This document shows, piece after piece, positions 36,910-45,854 of a DNA stretch of 64,000 nucleotides. Source of the DNA: Mesorhizobium sp. (GTDB lineage Bacteria > Pseudomonadota > Alphaproteobacteria > Rhizobiales > Rhizobiaceae); assembly GCA_004017535.1 (NCBI GenBank), contig SAJS01000001.1:682001-746000 (forward strand), read 5' to 3'. The notes under the pieces are model-generated. The model was not told the origin of the DNA and did no database searches. It was given only the letters and a program-made list of their open reading frames with translations. Made by a program: the position numbers and the translations under genes. Within the stretch, counting starts at the first letter, position 1. Every line of letters starts with the position of its first letter.

Positions 36910-38187
36910 ATGAAGAATTCAGCCATTTCCGAACGCAAGAACCAGTCGATCTCGCGCGGCGTCGGCATGACGACGCAGATCTACGCCGATCGCGCCGAGA
37001 ATTCGGAAATCTGGGATGTCGAGGGCCGCCGCTATATCGACTTCTCTTCCGGCATCGCCGTGGTCAACACCGGCCATCGCCACCCGAAGGTGATCGAGGC
37101 GGTCAAGGCACAGCTCGATCGCTTCACCCACACCTGCCACCAGGTCGTGCCCTATGAGAGCTACGTTCATCTCGCCGAGCGGCTGAACGGCATGCTGCCC
37201 GGCAAGTTCGACAAGAAGACCGTCTTCGTCACAACCGGCGCCGAGGCGGTTGAGAACGCGATCAAGATTGCCCGCAACGCCACCGGTCGCCAGGCGGTCA
37301 TCGCCTTTTCCGGCGGTTTCCACGGCCGCACCTTCATGGGCATGGCGCTGACCGGCAAGGTCGTGCCCTACAAGGTCGGCTTCGGCGCGATGCCGGCCGA
37401 TGTCTTCCATGCGCCGTTCCCGGTCGCGCTGCATGGCGTTTCGGTCGCCGATTCGCTTGCCGCGCTCGACAAGCTGTTCAAGGCCGATGTCGATCCGAAC
37501 CGCGTTGCCGCCATCATCGTCGAGCCGGTCCAGGGCGAGGGCGGCTTCTACGAAGCGCCGCGCGATTTCATGGCAGCACTGCGCAAGATCTGCGACCAGC
37601 ATGGCATCCTGCTCGTCGCCGACGAGGTGCAGACCGGCTTTGCCCGTACCGGCAAGATGTTCGCCATGGATCATCATGACGTGGCGCCCGATCTCACCAC
37701 CATGGCCAAGAGCCTCGCCGGCGGCTTCCCGCTGTCGGCCGTCACCGGCCGCGCCGAGATCATGGACGCGCCTGGCCCCGGCGGTCTCGGCGGCACCTAT
37801 GGCGGCAGCCCGATCGGCGTCGCCGCCGCCCACGCCGTGCTCGACGTCATCGAGGAGGAAAGGCTCTGTGACCGCGCCAATGCGCTGGGCGCCAGGCTGA
37901 AGCAACGGCTGGAATCGATCCGCGAGGACGTGCCGGAGATCGTCGACATCCGCGGCCCGGGCTTCATGAACGCCGTCGAGTTCAACGACGTGAAGAAGGG
38001 CCTGCCGTCGGCCGAATTCGCCAATGCGGTGCGGCTGAAGGCGCTGGACAAGGGCCTCATCCTGCTCACCTGCGGCGTTTACGGAAACGTCATCCGTTTC
38101 CTGTCGCCGATCACCATCCAGGACGGCGTCATGACAGAGGCGCTGGATATTCTGGAAAGCTCGATCCGCGACGCGCGGGCGGCCTAA
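36910..38187 (+). CDS. gabT: 4-aminobutyrate aminotransferase family enzyme
   Basis: 425 residues from an ATG with GAGGGA six bases upstream. It is a class III PLP transaminase: cofactor phosphate-binding TTGAEAVENAIKIAR, Asp238 in LVADEVQTGFARTG, and Schiff-base Lys267 in TMAKSLAGGFP. The closest recognised pattern is GabT, which moves the amino group of GABA to 2-oxoglutarate, but related omega-transaminases share these motifs. The 3' end overlaps that of the convergent flavoprotein gene by four bases. Confidence 0.88.
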   Translation: MKNSAISERKNQSISRGVGMTTQIYADRAENSEIWDVEGRRYIDFSSGIAVVNTGHRHPKVIEAVKAQLDRFTHTCHQVVPYESYVHLAERLNGMLPGKFDKKTVFVTTGAEAVENAIKIARNATGRQAVIAFSGGFHGRTFMGMALTGKVVPYKVGFGAMPADVFHAPFPVALHGVSVADSLAALDKLFKADVDPNRVAAIIVEPVQGEGGFYEAPRDFMAALRKICDQHGILLVADEVQTGFARTGKMFAMDHHDVAPDLTTMAKSLAGGFPLSAVTGRAEIMDAPGPGGLGGTYGGSPIGVAAAHAVLDVIEEERLCDRANALGARLKQRLESIREDVPEIVDIRGPGFMNAVEFNDVKKGLPSAEFANAVRLKALDKGLILLTCGVYGNVIRFLSPITIQDGVMTEALDILESSIRDARAA

Positions 38188-39437
38188 CCAGCGGCTCTTG
38201 CCGGCTCGTTTTCGCTGAAAGCCGCAAGCGCCGCCTTCAGCGCATCCGGCCCGCCCGCCACCGTCTGCGGCGTCGGCGAGAAGCCGGCGCCGAGCATCTT
38301 GCGGCCAAGCATGTGGTCGGCCGGGCGGTTGACGGATTCGATGCCGAGCAGCCGGTCGCCGGCATAGTGGTAGATCGAGAACTTGTTCTCGGCCAGATCG
38401 CCGAGCACCACATGGCTGTCCCCGCCTTGCGTCAGCCCCACCATCTGCAGCTTCATGTCGCCGATATCCGACCAGAACCACGGCACCGCAGTAAAGGGCT
38501 CGGCATGTCCGAGAATGGTGCGCGCGGCGAGCCGCGCCTGGTCGGTGGCGTTCTGCACCGATTCCAGCCGCACGTCGCCGCCGGTGAACCAGTGCCGGTA
38601 GGCGGCGGCGTCGCCGATGGCGAGGATTTCGGGGATCGTGCTCTGCATATGCTGGTCGACGCGGATACCGTTGCCGATGGCCAAGCCGGCGGCTTCGGCC
38701 AGCTCGACATTGGGCGCCACGCCGATGCCGATGATCACCATCTGCGCCGGCAGACGTTCGCCACTTGAGGTGATCGCTGCCGAGACGCGGCCGTTGTCGC
38801 CCTCCAGCCGGGCGACGGTGGTGCCGGTCAGGATGCGCACGCCGATCGCTTCCAGGCGCTGGCGCACATGCGCGGCGATGATCGGCGCCACGGCGCGGCC
38901 GAGCAGCCGGTCGACCGCCTCGACGACGGTGACGTTGCGGCCGGCGGCCCTCAGCGTCGCCGCGATCTCCAGCCCGATGAAGCCGCCGCCGAGAATGACC
39001 ACGTCCTCGCTTTGCGCGCTGAGCTCGCGGATCAGGCGCGCGTCGGCCAGCGAGCGCAGCGAGACCACGCCGGCAAGGCCGGCGCCATCGAGCTTGAGCA
39101 GGCGCGGCCGCGAGCCGGTCGCAAGCACCAGTCGGTCGAAGCCGAGCGTTCCGCCGCCTGCGACATTCAACCGGCCCGCGCGGGCATCGATGCTGTCAAT
39201 GCGCACGCCCGGCCGGTAGTCGATGGTGTTGCCCGAGTAAAAGGCCTCGCCGCGCAGCGGCTGCGGCTTGGCTTCGGGATCCTTGATGAAGGTCTTGGAC
39301 AGCGGCGGTTTGTGATAAGGCAGTTCCCGCTCGTCGCCGATCAGGACGACGGGCCCTTCATAGCCCTCTTCGCGCAGGCTGGCGGCGGCCTGCACGCCGG
39401 CATGGCCCGCACCGACAATCACAACCCCGTTCGTCAT
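38184..39437 (-). CDS. FAD-dependent ferredoxin-reductase-like oxidoreductase
   Basis: 417 residues. The FAD-binding GAGHAGVQAAASLRE at the N-terminus, the NAD-binding GGGFIGLEIAATLRAAGRNVTVVE at about 150, and a C-terminal reductase domain (FWSDIGDMKLQMVG) match the putidaredoxin/rubredoxin reductase family of dioxygenase and P450 electron chains. No ferredoxin, oxygenase or P450 gene is adjacent, so the partner is unknown. Confidence 0.9.
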   Translation of the reverse strand: MTNGVVIVGAGHAGVQAAASLREEGYEGPVVLIGDERELPYHKPPLSKTFIKDPEAKPQPLRGEAFYSGNTIDYRPGVRIDSIDARAGRLNVAGGGTLGFDRLVLATGSRPRLLKLDGAGLAGVVSLRSLADARLIRELSAQSEDVVILGGGFIGLEIAATLRAAGRNVTVVEAVDRLLGRAVAPIIAAHVRQRLEAIGVRILTGTTVARLEGDNGRVSAAITSSGERLPAQMVIIGIGVAPNVELAEAAGLAIGNGIRVDQHMQSTIPEILAIGDAAAYRHWFTGGDVRLESVQNATDQARLAARTILGHAEPFTAVPWFWSDIGDMKLQMVGLTQGGDSHVVLGDLAENKFSIYHYAGDRLLGIESVNRPADHMLGRKMLGAGFSPTPQTVAGGPDALKAALAAFSENEPARAAG

Positions 39438-39576: not shown

Positions 39577-39607
39577 TTGACATTTGTAGTTTAGAATAAT
39601 TCTAAAC
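39577..39607 (+). promoter_or_regulatory. Iron-responsive promoter with perfect Irr (ICE) box
   Basis: GTTTAGAATAATTCTAAAC (39589-39607) is a perfect 8-3-8 palindrome containing TTTAGAA-N3-TTCTAAA, the iron control element bound by Irr in rhizobia. TTGACA (39577-39582) and TCTAAA (39601-39606, spacing 18) form a promoter, so the box covers the -10 region, as expected for repression. The whole gene-free stretch 39438-39852 contains this promoter and then a 245-base leader in which I see no other gene or conserved RNA. Confidence 0.8.
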
Positions 39608-39852
39608 TATTGTTTCAATTGAATTTTTTCCGTCGCCCCAGTTGACTCCCGGCCTCTCCCTCGCTTTATGGAGGGCTGCGCGCAAAGCGCATCCCTTTGA
39701 TGTCTGGGCCTTGAACCCGTTCGATTGGAGGCAAGTGGGTGTCTTTTTATCGCGAACCGCGCATCGGCGCGGCCACCATTTTCCCCGGCGTGCTCATGCC
39801 TCGGCGCGGGTGGGCGCCACCTATTGAATTTCCAAAGAACTGGAGAAGGATA

Positions 39853-41142
39853 ATGACGGCACGTAACGGCGGCAGGCTGGCTGCGATCTGCGCCACGGCT
39901 GCACTGACGGCGGCGGTGTTCGTGTTGCCGGCGAAAGCCGGGACCGACGCCAAGGCGGTGATCAAGACCTATGCCGACATCGCTCTGGCCAAATACGAGG
40001 ATTCGCTGACCACGGCGCAGGCGCTGGACAAGGCTGTCGATGCGCTTATCGCCAGTCCCTCCGCCGATACGCTGAACGCCGCGCGCGAAGCCTGGAAGGC
40101 GGCGCGAATCCCTTACCAGCAGACCGAGGTCTATCGCTTCGGCAACAAGATCGTCGACGACTGGGAAGGCCGCGTGAATTCCTGGCCGCTGGATGAGGGG
40201 CTGATCGATTATGTCGCCAAGAGCTACGGCACCGAGTCGGACGAGAATGCGCTCTACACGGCCAACGTCATCGCCAACAAGGAAATCGAGATCAACGGCA
40301 AGAAGGTCGACGCCTCGAAGCTGACGCCGGAATTCCTGTCCGGCACGCTGCAGGAAGCCGGGGGCGTCGAGGCCAATGTCGCGACCGGCTATCACGCGAT
40401 CGAATTCCTGCTCTGGGGCCAGGACCTGCACCGCACCGGCCCGGGCGCCGGCGAGCGGCCCTATACGGATTACGACCTCAAGAACTGCACGGGCGGCAAT
40501 TGCGACCGCCGCGCCGAATATCTGAAATCGGCGAGCGACCTTCTGGTGTCCGACCTGCAGGAGATGGTCGACAACTGGAAGGAAGACGGCGCCGCGCGCA
40601 AGAACCTCACGGACGGTGACGCGAATACCGGCATCTCCACCATCTTCACGGGCATGGGCTCGCTCTCCTACGGCGAACTGGCGGGCGAGCGCATGAAGCT
40701 TGGCCTTTTGCTGCACGATCCGGAGGAGGAGCACGACTGCTTCTCCGACAACACCTACAACTCGCATCTCTATGACGCCGTCGGCATCCGCGACGCCTAC
40801 CATGCCAGCTACAAGCGGCTCGACGGTTCCGTGGTTTCGGGTCCGTCGGTGTCCGACATGGTGAAGGCCGCCGATCCGGCGATCGACAAGGAGCTGTTGG
40901 GCAAGCTCGACACCACCGTCGCCAAGATGGAGGCCATCAAGGCGCGCGCGCTGGCCGGCGAGGCCTATGACCAGCAGATCGCCGAGGGCAACACTGAAGG
41001 CAACGCCACCGTGCAGGCGGCGATCGACGCGCTGATCGACCAGACCAAGTCGATCGAGCGCGCCGTCGGCTCGCTAAAGCTGAACCAGATCGCCTTCGAG
41101 GGTTCGGACAGCCTCGACGCCCCGGACAAGGTGTTCAAGTAG
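39853..41142 (+). CDS. Imelysin-family (peptidase M75-like) periplasmic protein
   Basis: 429 residues from an ATG with AGAAGGA upstream. The signal peptide ends in LPAKAG. The mature protein is helical and carries the imelysin motif GYHAIEFLLWG (GxHxxE, 179-184). The family includes IrpA-like, EfeO-like and insulin-cleaving membrane protease proteins, and several members are iron-regulated; metal binding is likelier than proteolysis. It is the first gene after the Irr box and heads a six-gene run. Confidence 0.92.
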   Translation: MTARNGGRLAAICATAALTAAVFVLPAKAGTDAKAVIKTYADIALAKYEDSLTTAQALDKAVDALIASPSADTLNAAREAWKAARIPYQQTEVYRFGNKIVDDWEGRVNSWPLDEGLIDYVAKSYGTESDENALYTANVIANKEIEINGKKVDASKLTPEFLSGTLQEAGGVEANVATGYHAIEFLLWGQDLHRTGPGAGERPYTDYDLKNCTGGNCDRRAEYLKSASDLLVSDLQEMVDNWKEDGAARKNLTDGDANTGISTIFTGMGSLSYGELAGERMKLGLLLHDPEEEHDCFSDNTYNSHLYDAVGIRDAYHASYKRLDGSVVSGPSVSDMVKAADPAIDKELLGKLDTTVAKMEAIKARALAGEAYDQQIAEGNTEGNATVQAAIDALIDQTKSIERAVGSLKLNQIAFEGSDSLDAPDKVFK

Positions 41143-41204
41143 GGTTTAGACGTGACCACCAGCCGAGCGGCGTCGGACCGGCGCCGTCAGCCAGAGCAAG
41201 TGAA

Positions 41205-41516
41205 ATGCTGATATGCCATTGCAACATCATCACCGAGAAGGAGATCGAGCAGACGATCGTCGGCCTGCTGGATGAGGATCCCTGGCAGTTGATCGTGCCC
41301 GCGAAGGTCTACCACGCGATGCGCAAGCGCGGCCGCTGTTGCGGCTGTTTCCCGAATGTGGTGGAAACGATCATTCGGGTCACCGAGAACTACCACGCCC
41401 GCTCACAGGTGGGCGGCGCGGACATCGTTTCACACCTGGATCGCGTGCGAGGCTTGCGCGGCCAATACGGGAGCAGAGCCCATGAAAGGCGAACCGCAGA
41501 TCATCGAGCGGCTTAA
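41205..41516 (+). CDS. bfd: Bacterioferritin-associated ferredoxin (Bfd-like)
   Basis: 103 residues, longer than the usual 64-75. The [2Fe-2S] ligands are Cys4, Cys6, Cys45 and Cys48 (CHC...CCGC), with a spacing six residues longer than in E. coli Bfd. It passes electrons to bacterioferritin haem to release stored iron. The C-terminal 35-40 residues are Arg-rich and partly encoded over the bfr start (35-base overlap), so the tail may have little function. Confidence 0.88.
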
Positions 41517-41967
41517 TGAAGCTCTGTTTCTGGAGCTCGGGGCCGTCAACCAGTACTGGGTGCATTATCGCCTGCTCGAGGATTGGGGCTACACCAAGCT
41601 GGCAAAGAAGGAGCGGGCGGAATCGATCGAGGAAATGCATCACGCCGACCGGTTGATCGCGCGCATCATCTTCCTCGAAGGCCACCCGAACCTGCAGTCC
41701 GTCGCGCCGCTGCGCATCGGCCAGAACGTCAAGGAAGTGCTCGAATCCGATCTGGCCGGCGAATATGACGCGCGCACCGCCTACAAGCGCTCGCGCGAGA
41801 TCTGCCACGACGAAGGCGATTTCGTCTCGATGAAGCTGTTCGAGGACCTTTTGACCGACGAGGAAGGCCATATCGACTTCCTGGAAACGCAGCTCGACCT
41901 GCTCGCCTCGATCGGCGAGGAGAAGTACGGCCTGCTCAATGCCGACTCGGCCAACGAGGCGGAGTAA
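41482..41967 (+). CDS. bfr: Bacterioferritin
   Basis: 161 residues. All ferroxidase ligands are present at canonical numbers: Glu18, Glu51, His54, Glu94, Glu127 and His130. The haem ligand Met52 is also present. The 24-subunit shell oxidises and stores iron in the cytoplasm. The start lies inside the end of bfd, implying coupled translation. Irr-dependent repression of iron storage in low iron would fit the upstream box. Confidence 0.96.
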
Positions 41968-41979
41968 GGACATGCGGGA

Positions 41980-43587
41980 ATGCGGCGCCCCGTAGAGTTT
42001 TCGTGCCGCGCGCGGCGGGCCGCAATCGACGGCTTGCCGCTTCAGAAGAGCCCGCGATACCGGACCGGTCGCGGTCGGGGGGCGTCGCTTTTGCTGGCGA
42101 TCATGCTTTCCGCACCCACGCTGGCCGGCGAGCCGGCCGCCCTGCCGACGGGCCGCACCGACCTGACGCCGAAGGACCAGGCGCGGGTTCTGGCCGTCAC
42201 CAGGCCGACGACCGACTTCACCAGACCTGAGCCGTTCGAGCTGATGCAGGGCGGCGCCGGCACGTCGCGCAAGGACGTCAACCCCGATGCCTTCTCGCAG
42301 TCCTCCGCCAACATCACTTTCGAGGACGAGGGCAATTTCAAGCTCGGCAATGCGCTTTTCCGCAAGAACTGGGTGTCGTCGCCGTCGTCGACCCAGGCTT
42401 CCGACGGTCTTGGCCCGCTGTTCAACGAGCGCGCTTGCCAGAACTGCCATTTGAAGGACGGCCGCGGCCGCCCGCCGCAAGGTGATGCCGGATCGACATC
42501 GATGTTCCTCAGGCTCGCGCGCGGCGCAAGCAACGCCGAGGAAAAGGCCGCGCTCGCCGACCGCAAGGTGCTGAATTTTCCTGATCCGGTCTATGGCGCG
42601 CAATTGCAGGATTTGGCAGTTCCGGGCCTCAAGGGCGAAGGCCGCATGCGTGTCGAGTACTCCGAGGAGAAGGTGACGCTCGGCGACGGCACCGTCGTTG
42701 CGCTGCGCAAGCCGAACTATTCCGTTGAAAATCTCGGCTATGGCCCGCTCGATGCGCGAACCACGCTGTCGCCGCGCCTGACGCCGCCGATGATCGGGCT
42801 CGGCCTGATTGAGCAGATCGCGCCGGCCGATATCCTCGCCCATGCCGATCCGGACGATCGCGACGGCGATGGCATTTCGGGGCGGCCGAACATCGTGCGC
42901 GACGAGCTGAGCGGTGCGTTGACCCTTGGCCGCTTCGGCTGGAAGGCGCAGACCGCCTCGATCCGCCAGCAGGCGGCCGATGCTTTTGCCGGCGATATCG
43001 GCATCTCGACCCCTGAAATGCCGAAGCCTTGGGGCGACTGCACGGAGGCCGAGAAGGACTGCCTGGCTATGCCGAACGGCGTGCAACAGCGGCTGGGCAC
43101 GGCCGAAGCCCCGCCGCCGGTGATGGACCTCGTCACCTTCTATTCGCAGAATCTGGCCGTGCCGGCTCGGCGCGACATCGCCACACCGCAAGTGCTCGCC
43201 GGCAAAAAGCAGTTCTACGACATGGGCTGCATTTCCTGCCACACGCCAAAATTCGTGACCATGCGCGGCACGCCCAACAAGGCGCAGGCCTTCCAGCTGA
43301 TCTGGCCCTATTCCGATTTCCTGCTGCACGACATGGGCGAGGGCCTTGCGGACGGACAACGGGTTGGAGAAGCCACGGGGAGCGAGTGGCGCACCCCGCC
43401 GCTCTGGGGTATTGGGCTCACCGCGACAGTCAACGGCAATGCCTTTTATCTGCATGACGGCCGCGCCCGCACGCTTGCCGAGGCGATACTGTGGCATGGC
43501 GGCGAGGGGCAGAAGGCCCGCGACCGCTTTGCCGGGGCGGCCGTGGCCGATCGCGATGCGCTGATCAAATTCCTGGAGTCCCTCTGA
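41980..43587 (+). CDS. Di-haem c-type oxidoreductase (DUF1111, 'thiol oxidoreductase' family)
   Basis: 535 residues. A long basic N-terminus leads to a signal segment (SLLLAIMLSAPTLAG). Two haem motifs, CQNCH (153-157) and CISCH (417-421), resemble the di-haem peroxidase layout, with a Ca-binding-like PDDRDGDGISGRPN between them. The family is periplasmic and regularly encoded between two imelysin genes; its reaction is not established. It starts 12 bases after bfr, and its stop overlaps the next start (TGATG). Confidence 0.9.
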   Translation: MRRPVEFSCRARRAAIDGLPLQKSPRYRTGRGRGASLLLAIMLSAPTLAGEPAALPTGRTDLTPKDQARVLAVTRPTTDFTRPEPFELMQGGAGTSRKDVNPDAFSQSSANITFEDEGNFKLGNALFRKNWVSSPSSTQASDGLGPLFNERACQNCHLKDGRGRPPQGDAGSTSMFLRLARGASNAEEKAALADRKVLNFPDPVYGAQLQDLAVPGLKGEGRMRVEYSEEKVTLGDGTVVALRKPNYSVENLGYGPLDARTTLSPRLTPPMIGLGLIEQIAPADILAHADPDDRDGDGISGRPNIVRDELSGALTLGRFGWKAQTASIRQQAADAFAGDIGISTPEMPKPWGDCTEAEKDCLAMPNGVQQRLGTAEAPPPVMDLVTFYSQNLAVPARRDIATPQVLAGKKQFYDMGCISCHTPKFVTMRGTPNKAQAFQLIWPYSDFLLHDMGEGLADGQRVGEATGSEWRTPPLWGIGLTATVNGNAFYLHDGRARTLAEAILWHGGEGQKARDRFAGAAVADRDALIKFLESL

Positions 43588-44684
43588 TGTTGAAACGCGT
43601 CGCTCTGGTGTCGAAACGCCTGGCCCTTGCTCTTCCATTGCTTCTGGCCGCCGCCGTGCTGCCGGCATCGGCCGCGGTCAAGGCTTCCGACGTCATCGGC
43701 CGCGCGATCGACGGTTTCGTCCGCCCGGCCTATGCCAGCCTCGACGAGCATGCGGCGGGCCTCACCAAGGCGATGCACCAGCTTTGCGAAACGCCGTCCG
43801 GTCAAGACCTCGAAGCGGCGCGCGCGGCATTTTCAGGCACCGTGGAGGCCTGGTCTGTGGCCGAGATCATCGCCTTCGGGCCGATCAAGGAAAACAACCG
43901 GCTGGAGCGTATGCTCTATTGGCCGGACCGCAAGAGCATCGGCCTGAGACAAGTGCAGGCCACGCTCGCATCGAAGGACCCCTCGGCCACCGATCCGGTG
44001 CAACTGGCGCAAAAGAGCGTCGCCATGCAGGGCCTCGGCGCGCTCGAATATGTGCTCTATGGCGACGGCGCCGAAACGCTTGCAGGGAGGGACGAGCCCT
44101 ATCGTTGCGCCTATGGCGAGGCGGTCGCCGGCAACGTCGAAACCATGGCCGGCGAGGTGCGCGATGCCTGGCAAAAGCCCGACGGCTTCGCGTCGCTCTG
44201 GGCTAATCCCGGCCCGAAGAACCCGCTCTACCGCGACGGCAACGAAGCGGTGACGGAACTGGTCGGCGTCTTCATCAACGAGCTGGACATGATCCGCGAC
44301 GTGCGGCTCAAGGGCTTCCTTGGCGCTAAGCCGGACGCCGACAAGCCAAAGCAGGCGATCTACTGGCGCTCGCGGAACACGGCGGCCTCGCTGGCCGGAA
44401 ATCTCTCCGGCATCGACCAGCTGTTCCAGGCTTCCAAGCTGGGCGATGCGCTGCCCGCCAACGCGCAGTGGATGGCCGAGTCCATCCACATCCAGCTCGG
44501 TAACGGCGTCACAACAGCGAAATCGATCCCCGGCCCGATCGACAAGGCCCTCGCCGACCCCGCGCTGCGCGACAAGTTCGAACATTTCGCGCTGATCACC
44601 TCGAGCCTGTCGACCTTGATCGGCACCAGGATGACCGCCGAGTTCGGCCTTACCGCCGGTTTCTCGTCGCTGGATGGGGACTGA
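43587..44684 (+). CDS. Second imelysin-family periplasmic protein, with degenerate motif
   Basis: 365 residues with a signal peptide ending in PASAA. The region matching the imelysin motif reads GLGALEYVLYG (149-159), in which the His of GxHxxE is Gly151. The protein is otherwise helical and of family length. Together with the first imelysin and the di-haem protein it makes a periplasmic set. A palindromic repeat begins directly after its stop codon. Confidence 0.9.
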   Translation: MLKRVALVSKRLALALPLLLAAAVLPASAAVKASDVIGRAIDGFVRPAYASLDEHAAGLTKAMHQLCETPSGQDLEAARAAFSGTVEAWSVAEIIAFGPIKENNRLERMLYWPDRKSIGLRQVQATLASKDPSATDPVQLAQKSVAMQGLGALEYVLYGDGAETLAGRDEPYRCAYGEAVAGNVETMAGEVRDAWQKPDGFASLWANPGPKNPLYRDGNEAVTELVGVFINELDMIRDVRLKGFLGAKPDADKPKQAIYWRSRNTAASLAGNLSGIDQLFQASKLGDALPANAQWMAESIHIQLGNGVTTAKSIPGPIDKALADPALRDKFEHFALITSSLSTLIGTRMTAEFGLTAGFSSLDGD

Positions 44685-44731
44685 GAGCATGACCCCAAAA
44701 AGTTGCAGACTTTTTGGACAAGGTCATGCTC
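44685..44731. repeat. Palindromic repeat, family B, single hairpin
   Basis: Outer arms GAGCATGACC and GGTCATGCTC and inner arms CCAAAAAGT and ACTTTTTGG give a near-perfect 47-base hairpin lying directly between a stop codon and the GTG of the next operon gene. It belongs to the same sequence type as the element at 47282. Confidence 0.75.
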
Positions 44732-44747
44732 CGAGGGAGATCGTCCC

Positions 44748-45854
44748 GTGAGAACTCCCCTCATCGACCGCCGCGATTTCCTGCGGGCCGCGGGCGCTGG
44801 CTTCGCCGCCGCCATGGCACCGCGCGCCTGGGCCGACACCCTTGCGGCGGACGCCGTATTTGCCACGGCCTTCGCCAAGCGCGACGGCAGTTTTGGCGCC
44901 GCCGTGCTCTCCGAGGCGGGAAAAATCCTGCATTCGCTCGATCTGCCGGATCGCGGCCATGACGTCACTTTCGATCCGGTGTCGAAACGCTCGGTCGTTT
45001 TTGCCCGGCAGCCCGGCACTTTCGCGGTCGTCTTCGACCATGCGGGCCGCGACAAGCCTTTGACCATTGCCAGCATCGCCGGGCGGCATTTCTTCGGCCA
45101 TGGCGTGTTCTCGACCGACGGCGCCTTGCTCTATGCGACAGAAAACGACTTCGACAACGCGGCAGGTGTCGTCGGCGTCTATGACGCGAAGGCCGGGTTC
45201 AACCGCGCCGGCGAGTTCCCGACCTATGGCATGGGGCCGCACGAACTGCTCCTGCTCGGCGATGGCCGCACCTTGGCCATCGCCAATGGCGGCATCGAGA
45301 CCCATCCCGACTATGGTCGCGCCGAGCTCAACATCGCGACGATGAAGCCCTCCTACACGCTGGTCGACCGCATCACCGGCGACCTGATCGAAAAGCACGA
45401 ATTGCCGCCGGCGCTGCATCAGCTTTCGATCCGCCATATGGACCGCGACCAGGCGGGCACCGTCTGGTTCGGCTGCCAGCATCGCGGGCCGGCGACAGAC
45501 CGCCCCGCGCTGGTTGGCCGTGCCGCGCGCGGCAAGGAGCTCGAACTCGTGGAGATGCCGCGAGATGTGCTCGCCGGCTTCCGCAATTATATCGGCTCGG
45601 TCGCCGCCAATGCCGCGATGGGTACTGTCGCCGTCACCTCGCCGGAAGGCAATTCGCTGGCAGTGCTCGATGCCGCCAGTGGCCGCGTGGTCGCGACCAG
45701 ATCGCTGGTCGAGGTCTGCGGCCTTGCGCCCGACGGCGCCGGCTTCATGGCGACTACCGGCGCCGGCGAGATCGTCGGCGGCGCCGGCGCCACCCGTTCC
45801 GAGCCGGATTATGTCTGGGACAACCATATGCTGCGCATTGTCGCGACGGCGTGA
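44748..45854 (+). CDS. DUF1513 protein, Tat-exported
   Basis: 368 residues from GTG preceded by GAGGGAG. A twin-arginine signal, DRRDFLRAAGAGFAAAMAP, precedes an extended beta-rich domain with repeated blade-like segments (GHDVTFDPVSKRSVVFAR, GHGVFSTDGALLYATEND), consistent with a beta-propeller. Folding before export suggests a bound cofactor or metal. It is the last gene of the iron-regulated run and typically accompanies imelysin and DUF1111 genes. No activity is known. Confidence 0.87.
   Translation: MRTPLIDRRDFLRAAGAGFAAAMAPRAWADTLAADAVFATAFAKRDGSFGAAVLSEAGKILHSLDLPDRGHDVTFDPVSKRSVVFARQPGTFAVVFDHAGRDKPLTIASIAGRHFFGHGVFSTDGALLYATENDFDNAAGVVGVYDAKAGFNRAGEFPTYGMGPHELLLLGDGRTLAIANGGIETHPDYGRAELNIATMKPSYTLVDRITGDLIEKHELPPALHQLSIRHMDRDQAGTVWFGCQHRGPATDRPALVGRAARGKELELVEMPRDVLAGFRNYIGSVAANAAMGTVAVTSPEGNSLAVLDAASGRVVATRSLVEVCGLAPDGAGFMATTGAGEIVGGAGATRSEPDYVWDNHMLRIVATA

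Follow-up and report, generated by a model that had tools for sequence, protein, structure and literature searches.

Operons that join imelysin-type proteins to bacterioferritin have been described before. The closest belongs to Rhodobacter sphaeroides, where hemP-irpA-bfd-bfr is followed by RSP_1545-1543, encoding a di-haem protein, a signal-peptide protein and a hypothetical protein (PMC4618611, PMC3413700, PMC4176601; sections dealing with this locus). Differential RNA sequencing "strongly suggests" co-transcription there, IscR acts as repressor, and in the wild type iron limitation raises irpA 4.05-fold, bfd 2.71-fold and bfr 1.99-fold (PMC3413700, PMC4618611; same sections). In Pseudomonas aeruginosa, PA4370-PA4373 encode two imelysin-like proteins and a DUF1111 protein under Fur regulation; bfd-bfr is not mentioned in the extract of that source used here (PMC3143127). 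We analysed a six-gene module of Mesorhizobium sp. (imelysin A, bfd, bfr, a DHOR/DUF1111 di-haem protein, imelysin B and DUF1513) at positions 39577-45854 of a 64,000-nucleotide (nt) stretch, called here the window (GCA_004017535.1, SAJS01000001.1:682,001-746,000). Its upstream region holds an Irr box, or iron control element (ICE), and an RNA hairpin with the loop CCUUGAA that abuts the Shine-Dalgarno (SD) sequence.

The Rhodobacter operon shares with this locus the order irpA-bfd-bfr-di-haem-imelysin position-hypothetical on one strand, as well as iron regulation, so that novelty of the six-gene linkage is ruled out. It differs in having IscR and an Iron-Rhodo-box where Mesorhizobium has Irr, and in starting with hemP, which we did not find at the head of the Mesorhizobium operon (the genome's hemP match is on a different contig, C22). 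The P. aeruginosa set likewise has two imelysins and a DUF1111 protein, but answers to Fur. EfeUOB resembles the operon in that a haem enzyme accompanies a protein with an M75 imelysin domain; here the haem protein is of the DHOR type, and none of the six operon genes encodes an Ftr1-type permease EfeU. With the rhizobial Irr/ICE regulon the genome shares an exact ICE, an Irr-like gene and boxes at mbfA-like, SufS-like and NfuA-like genes, whereas the operon ICE differs in lying upstream of a conserved -35 element, an activator-type geometry. The linkage being known and the regulator different, the new part would be the hairpin.

We propose that this is an operon for iron acquisition or mobilisation with two stacked iron controls, Irr on the DNA and the hairpin on the RNA, and we put the probability of this reading at roughly 0.55. 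It builds on what we observe of the parts, their conservation, the covariation of the inner stem and the gene context. When iron is short, Irr would be active, would bind the ICE, which would lie some 70-80 bp before the start site, and, judging from the geometry, would activate the promoter with the -35 element TTGACT. The leader element, a covarying stem of mostly 4-6 bp, would present its nearly invariant loop, and the SD could be masked by an outer pairing of 6 bp (UCYGAU/AUUGGA); a trans factor reading the loop (an RNA-binding protein or a small RNA, sRNA), or the RNA itself as sensor, would set the translation of the first gene. Imelysins and di-haem proteins of these families handle periplasmic iron and Bfd releases the iron of Bfr, and the products of the operon would presumably do the same.

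The leader hairpin

An alignment of upstream regions contains, besides the ICE, a second highly conserved block, CCTTTGATGTCTGGGCCTTGAACCCTTTCGATTGGAGG. A search for its loop and tail that ignored the stem, over 140 loci (1.93 Mb; L036 and L121, by our own labels, are apparently one locus), gave 67 matches on the imelysin strand. Sixty-six of them are upstream of imelysin A, all with a stem of at least 3 bp; the remaining match has 1 bp. The loop and tail were not matched in 74 of the 140 loci, including 24 of at least 25 loci of the Rhizobium group and many of other families. From these matches we built model R1; a second, wider model is called R2. Among 121 genomes of the order (Rhizobiales), the sample that also served for the imelysin A survey, R1 identified the element in 35 genomes and at 50 places, many of them distant from imelysins, and R2 identified it in 111 genomes of a larger order sample of 397. 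Class samples of 190 (R1) and 289 (R2) genomes, our own included, gave no match beyond that genome, the 2 and 3 other order members in them being unmatched as well. Over the 397 genomes the stem-free pattern had 83 matches in 74 genomes, against 0 for a reversed-pattern control; a stem beginning right at the loop reaches 3 bp or more in 78 of the 83, and 5 bp or more in 59. With E values up to 1 considered, no covariance model of Rfam 15 matched at the hairpin in the window stretch or in 9 loci, nor does the literature searched, including the parts used of the M. huakuii sRNA and 104-RNA papers, describe a hairpin of this kind. Within these searches the order-wide hairpin is undescribed.

For the structural analysis we classified 41 of the 50 R1 places (leaving out G010:C9, G018, G029:C21, G048, G050, G061, G072, G075:C14:58734 and G075:C8) and added 98 R2 places (leaving out the same-genus places G323, G396, G435, G452 and G496), which makes 139 places among the matches listed, with 113 distinct rows. 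In the inner stem 95.9% of the cells are paired, and 62 double changes are seen, as compared with a mean of 14.0 and a maximum of 23 in 500 shuffles. The loop is nearly invariant among 104 distinct loop-and-tail sequences (C102, C97, T104, T104, G91/T11, A103, A85/C19). In the copies before fbpA, the cupredoxin gene and bfd, the modelled hairpin is part of the minimum-energy fold (z -0.90 to -2.17). As expected of an SD-sequestering leader, the SD lies inside the element at a fixed distance from the start codon, 5-8 nt in 108 of the 139 places. The element has this position in common with SD-hiding leader RNAs (riboswitches, thermometers, protein-bound leaders), and differs from them in matching nothing in Rfam 15 and in being confined to one order in the samples searched. 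We infer a role in translation, perhaps with a trans factor.

The genes behind the hairpin are largely iron genes. Within 1.8 kb, the first recognised gene is fbpA at 62 places, a gene that we call X at 40, imelysin A at 18, bfd at 11, a cupredoxin gene at 4, DUF2325 at 2, a TonB receptor gene at 1 and none at 1 (L340), the reference proteins having been drawn partly from the hairpin matches themselves. A recognised iron gene (fbpA, imelysin A, bfd, cupredoxin or TonB) therefore comes first in 96 of the 139; in 22 of the 40 X-first places imelysin A follows, and in 1 bfd. The fbpA representative matches the ferric-binding FbpA 1q35 at 7.6e-105. An ICE-like site (up to 2 mismatches) is present within 145 nt upstream of the hairpin in 63 of the 139 places, the mononucleotide-shuffled control giving 0.25%; by first gene these are 13 of 18 for imelysin A, 18 of 40 for X, 28 of 62 for fbpA, 3 of 11 for bfd, 1 of 1 for TonB and none of the other 7. 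The ICE and the hairpin thus often, but not always, travel together. Because the same element precedes iron genes across the order, with an ICE-like box in 63 of 139 cases, it would mark an iron regulon. In Mesorhizobium the start codon after the hairpin is GTG, ATG or TTG, and the reading frame that it opens is, among 54 loci, in frame with imelysin A in 24 and stopped in 25, while 5 have no hairpin within 420 nt.

Gene X encodes a predicted all-helical protein of about 170-200 residues with a CRDEC motif, and many genera have the gene either behind fbpA or ahead of imelysin A (for instance L136, L137, L139, L198 and L204); at 28 of the 62 fbpA places it stands further on. It was found in 47 of the 121 order genomes, and has no Pfam match, no confident PDB match and a best Foldseek E of 1.0. 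It belongs to the hairpin regulon, and is present in 26 of the 35 element-bearing genomes versus 21 of the 86 others. As an obligatory partner of the hairpin it was rejected, our own genome having the element and no X match; HemP/HmuP was rejected in the same role, being present in only 10 of the 35 element genomes. The partner may be an sRNA or another RNA-binding protein, or the RNA may sense directly. In genus g34 (L226, L228, L274, L278, L282) two divergent hairpins stand about 190-410 nt apart with an X gene behind each. The DUF2325 proteins behind the hairpin in L209 and L231 have a similar stretch, N(I/V)HCS(I/V)(I/V)GTCAS.

The Irr box and the operon promoter

The perfect palindrome GTTTAGAATAATTCTAAAC, to which a preliminary description of this DNA had drawn attention, is exact, with 0.01 occurrences expected in the window by shuffling. 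It agrees with the ICE consensus, TTTAGAA-N3-TTCTAAA. The 17-mer core occurs exactly at 2 sites of the 6.86-Mb genome, before the six-gene operon and before an mbfA-like gene. Among named relatives, defined as the best 80 loci (53 of the Mesorhizobium clade, L095-L147; 25 of the Rhizobium/Agrobacterium/Sinorhizobium group; L170 and L173), all 53 of the Mesorhizobium clade have the box upstream of the operon: 44 exact, 8 with one mismatch and 1 with two. In L136, L137 and L139 it stands before an additional gene X. A link of the operon to Irr is well supported by this conservation.

The preliminary description had the palindrome overlapping the promoter. This holds only for the upstream TTGACA, whose TTGAC is kept at the window spacing in 22 of the 53 relatives; the fully conserved TTGAC (53 of 53) lies instead 33-36 nt past the ICE core, and the -10-like element behind it has a similar counterpart, GCTTTATGG, in many relatives. 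Five loci (L050, L066, L067, L147 and L170) have a TTGAC 24-25 nt after the ICE, L147 having one at both 25 and 35; the two spacings differ by a single turn of the helix, which is what one would expect if the site has to face the polymerase. The second exact ICE of the genome (L002:1137-1153) is 17 nt before the mbfA-like gene, with a TTGAC 26 nt upstream and none downstream, a geometry that would be of the repressor type and would provide an internal contrast to the operon ICE. One-mismatch sites are found at a SufS-like (L003) and an NfuA-like (L004) gene, both named by eye. The FUR-family gene L343 of the same genome is Irr-like, judged by eye against an Irr sequence.

Competing explanations

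Irr is known to activate or to repress according to the position of the ICE (a review and a Brucella paper, in the parts used). Activation under low iron is the direction that we consider the more probable, because the TTGAC sits 33-36 nt downstream of the ICE in all 53 relatives. Classical repression, with the ICE over a promoter at the upstream TTGACA and a bfr-led operon for storage and peroxide defence under iron-replete conditions, as for mbfA, is a possible but rather unlikely arrangement. Its proponents could point to that TTGACA, which in the window and in 22 of the 53 relatives precedes the ICE core by 13 nt and would indeed place the ICE over a promoter, and to the mbfA-like gene behind the other exact ICE; they would have to explain why all 53 relatives have retained the downstream TTGAC but not the upstream one, and why the homologous Rhodobacter operon, admittedly under another regulator, is induced by iron limitation. 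Since both elements are present in the window and the 22 relatives, two promoters are possible. Several further points count against activation: other rhizobia have their bfr under Irr repression, according to the section of the review used; the helical-turn argument is based on 5 loci; among the 17 order-sample loci that have an ICE-like site (up to 2 mismatches), 9 lack a TTGAC in the 90 nt that follow it; and in L048, L063 and L073 the TTGAC is 46, 48 and 18 nt after such a site.

The RNA half of our proposal has its own difficulties. All 139 places were located with models that hold the inner stem, which biases the pair counts toward a stem (the stem-free searches serve as the check), and many sequences are closely related, so that shuffles ignoring kinship overstate the significance. 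The outer pairing is 91.1% paired versus 90.4% after shuffling, with 8 double changes versus 3.8 (maximum 9), which is a faint signal at best, since neither side varies much; it would be compatible with hiding of the SD. The window copy lacks the hairpin in its minimum-energy fold (z 1.08 for 56 nt, 0.07 for 184 nt), where the loop pairs with the SD; many Mesorhizobium copies have 3-5 bp directly at the loop and no more; and 76 of the 139 places are without an ICE-like site of up to 2 mismatches. It is thus conceivable, if unlikely, that the hairpin is a passive aid to translation initiation, or an insulator, with no regulatory partner: the structure is simple, the SD has its regular distance in the 108 places, and the folds of single copies have little or no advantage over shuffles (z 1.08 to -2.17). 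Such an aid would not be expected to have a 7-nt loop that hardly changes, nor to occur before recognised iron genes in 96 places and before X in 40. Still less probable is that the segment is coding sequence for a leader peptide (...FDVWALNPFDWR) with no RNA structure. The frame is open in the window (open reading frame 39642-39827), and part of the variation falls on third codon positions. Against this, reading upstream in frame meets a stop or runs off the stretch before any ATG or GTG in 95 of the 139 places, the length differs by a single base in L229, L300, L306, L307, L315 and L317, and the inner stem covaries. We give very little credence to the idea that the hairpin serves as an HPRE, the kind of element through which HmuP/HemP is known to activate haem receptor mRNAs post-transcriptionally. 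HmuP does act on conserved motifs in the 5' untranslated region of shmR in Ensifer, according to the part of the source used, but HemP is found in 10 of the 35 element genomes versus 23 of the 86 others, and the Chromobacterium HPRE sequences, as quoted in such a part, look different.

Operon genes, distribution and implications

The six genes run in one direction, as had been described, with in order a gap of 62, an overlap of 35, a gap of 12, an overlap of 1 and a gap of 63 nt (Table 1). Imelysin A closely resembles the ICMP of Pseudomonas whose structure is 7xrx. The Fer2_BFD match of bfd is weak (17.5 bits, cut-off 26), and the gene is probably bfd by this match, its CxC...CxxC cysteines and its position. 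Bfr has E18, E51, M52, H54, E94, E127 and H130, residues expected to have functional roles. PDB sequence searches gave no match for the DHOR protein up to E 0.1 and a best E of 0.17 for DUF1513. The best Foldseek matches of the predicted DUF1513 model are seven-bladed propellers; methylamine and aromatic amine dehydrogenase heavy chains and the MauG complex appear among many propellers that it resembles, a likeness too general to assign an identity. The gap separating imelysin B from DUF1513 contains an inverted repeat, GAGCATGACC...GGTCATGCTC (44685-44731), which may be a repeat element or an attenuator; a sub-threshold Rfam match to the Brucella sRNA CI27 (44675-44754; E 0.017, 26 of 59.8 bits) overlaps it. 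A divergent gene for an FAD reductase (38184-39437; Pyr_redox_2, Reductase_C), matched in 48 of the 53 Mesorhizobium-clade loci, adjoins the operon, and its product could supply electrons to Bfd.

Table 1. Features of the operon and its upstream region (window positions)
Feature	Position	Strand	Basis
Upstream -35-like TTGACA	39577-39582	+	spacing to ICE core; weakly kept
Irr box (ICE), perfect palindrome	39589-39607		exact match
-35-like TTGACT, downstream of ICE	39642-39647	+	spacing to ICE core, kept in relatives
-10-like TTTATG, putative	39665-39670	+	17 nt after -35-like element; read from sequence
Leader RNA hairpin, 38 nt, loop CCUUGAA, SD in 3' flank	39694-39731	+	models R1/R2, stem-free searches
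Shine-Dalgarno GGAGG inside hairpin element	39727-39731	+	start-codon spacing
GTG-started leader reading frame	39739-39852	+	in frame with imelysin A in window
Imelysin A, IrpA/ICMP type, GxHxxE	39853-41142	+	PF09375 1.4e-91; PDB 7xrx 1e-124
bfd, bacterioferritin-associated ferredoxin (probable)	41205-41516	+	sub-threshold PF04324, cysteines, context
bfr, bacterioferritin	41482-41967	+	TIGR00754; sole PF00210 match in genome
DHOR/DUF1111 di-haem protein, two CxxCH	41980-43587	+	PF06537 3.8e-95
Imelysin B, GxxxxE variant	43587-44684	+	PF09375 5.7e-48
DUF1513, Tat-type RRDFL start, predicted beta-propeller	44748-45854	+	PF07433 1.3e-109; AlphaFold2 pLDDT 92.3; Foldseek

Imelysin A is present in 67 of the 121 order genomes. 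We fetched its neighbourhood in 60 of the 66 other genomes with a match (left out: G007, G063, G070, G087, G106 and G120), and in 49 of these 60, by our own reading, imelysin A, DHOR, imelysin B and DUF1513 stand in a row, several of the other 11 being at a contig end. The bacterioferritin genes are less constant: bfd and/or bfr follow imelysin A in 9 of the 60 (L035, L036, L045, L046, L055, L059, L063, L066, L068), and bfd, mostly with bfr, is divergently upstream in 4 (L073, L078, L080, L081). In the Mesorhizobium clade bfd follows in 53 of 53 loci and bfr in 52 (one bfr is cut by a contig end); the locus of Mesorhizobium sp. B2-4-15 (L121:8397-8721), apparently on the same contig as L036, keeps bfd, and just the first 16 codons of bfr match. 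None of the 25 Rhizobium-group loci has bfd-bfr or an ICE of up to 2 mismatches, and 19 have a 3-mismatch site. Both L170 and L173 have bfr, and L170 additionally bfd and a one-mismatch ICE. In these two groups, Mesorhizobium and Rhizobium, ICE and bfd-bfr are either present together or both missing, a pattern that supports the preliminary proposal of Irr control joining bfd-bfr to the periplasmic genes. That description was right about the genes and the palindrome, and its interpretation is partly supported; it overlooked the hairpin in the leader and the promoter element past the box. Its further idea, that the di-haem protein oxidises or reduces iron held by the imelysins, is a guess; iron uptake or re-mobilisation seems likelier than storage alone, because the homologous Rhodobacter set is regulated by iron starvation.

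To our knowledge, with the exception of HmuP, the iron control described for this order acts on transcription, through Irr and RirA. The leader hairpin suggests an undescribed layer of iron control. One might speculate further that it is the cis element of an order-wide post-transcriptional iron regulon, stacked on Irr and read by one iron-sensing RNA-binding protein or sRNA, with the loop standing before genes of ferric transporters, imelysins, bfd-bfr, ferrous uptake and TonB receptors, although we rate this bolder view at somewhat worse than even odds. It would then be a functional counterpart of the eukaryotic iron-responsive element, in which a short upper stem with the conserved apical loop CAGUGN, an internal loop and a lower stem stand in the mRNAs of iron genes. 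The resemblance would lie only in the way of working: the loop is CCUUGAA instead of CAGUGN, and we have no evidence for a partner of the iron regulatory protein type.

If this is true, many genera would, through this hairpin, have an additional, translational level of iron control at their genes for ferric uptake, imelysins and bacterioferritin, and the CCUUGAA hairpin would offer a handle for finding the sensor, as any protein or sRNA that binds such hairpins. The poorly understood imelysin/DUF1111/DUF1513 set, gene X and the DUF2325 proteins would have a link to iron in common. The operon also illustrates how an activating Irr box might be told from a repressing one, by where it lies with respect to the -35 element.

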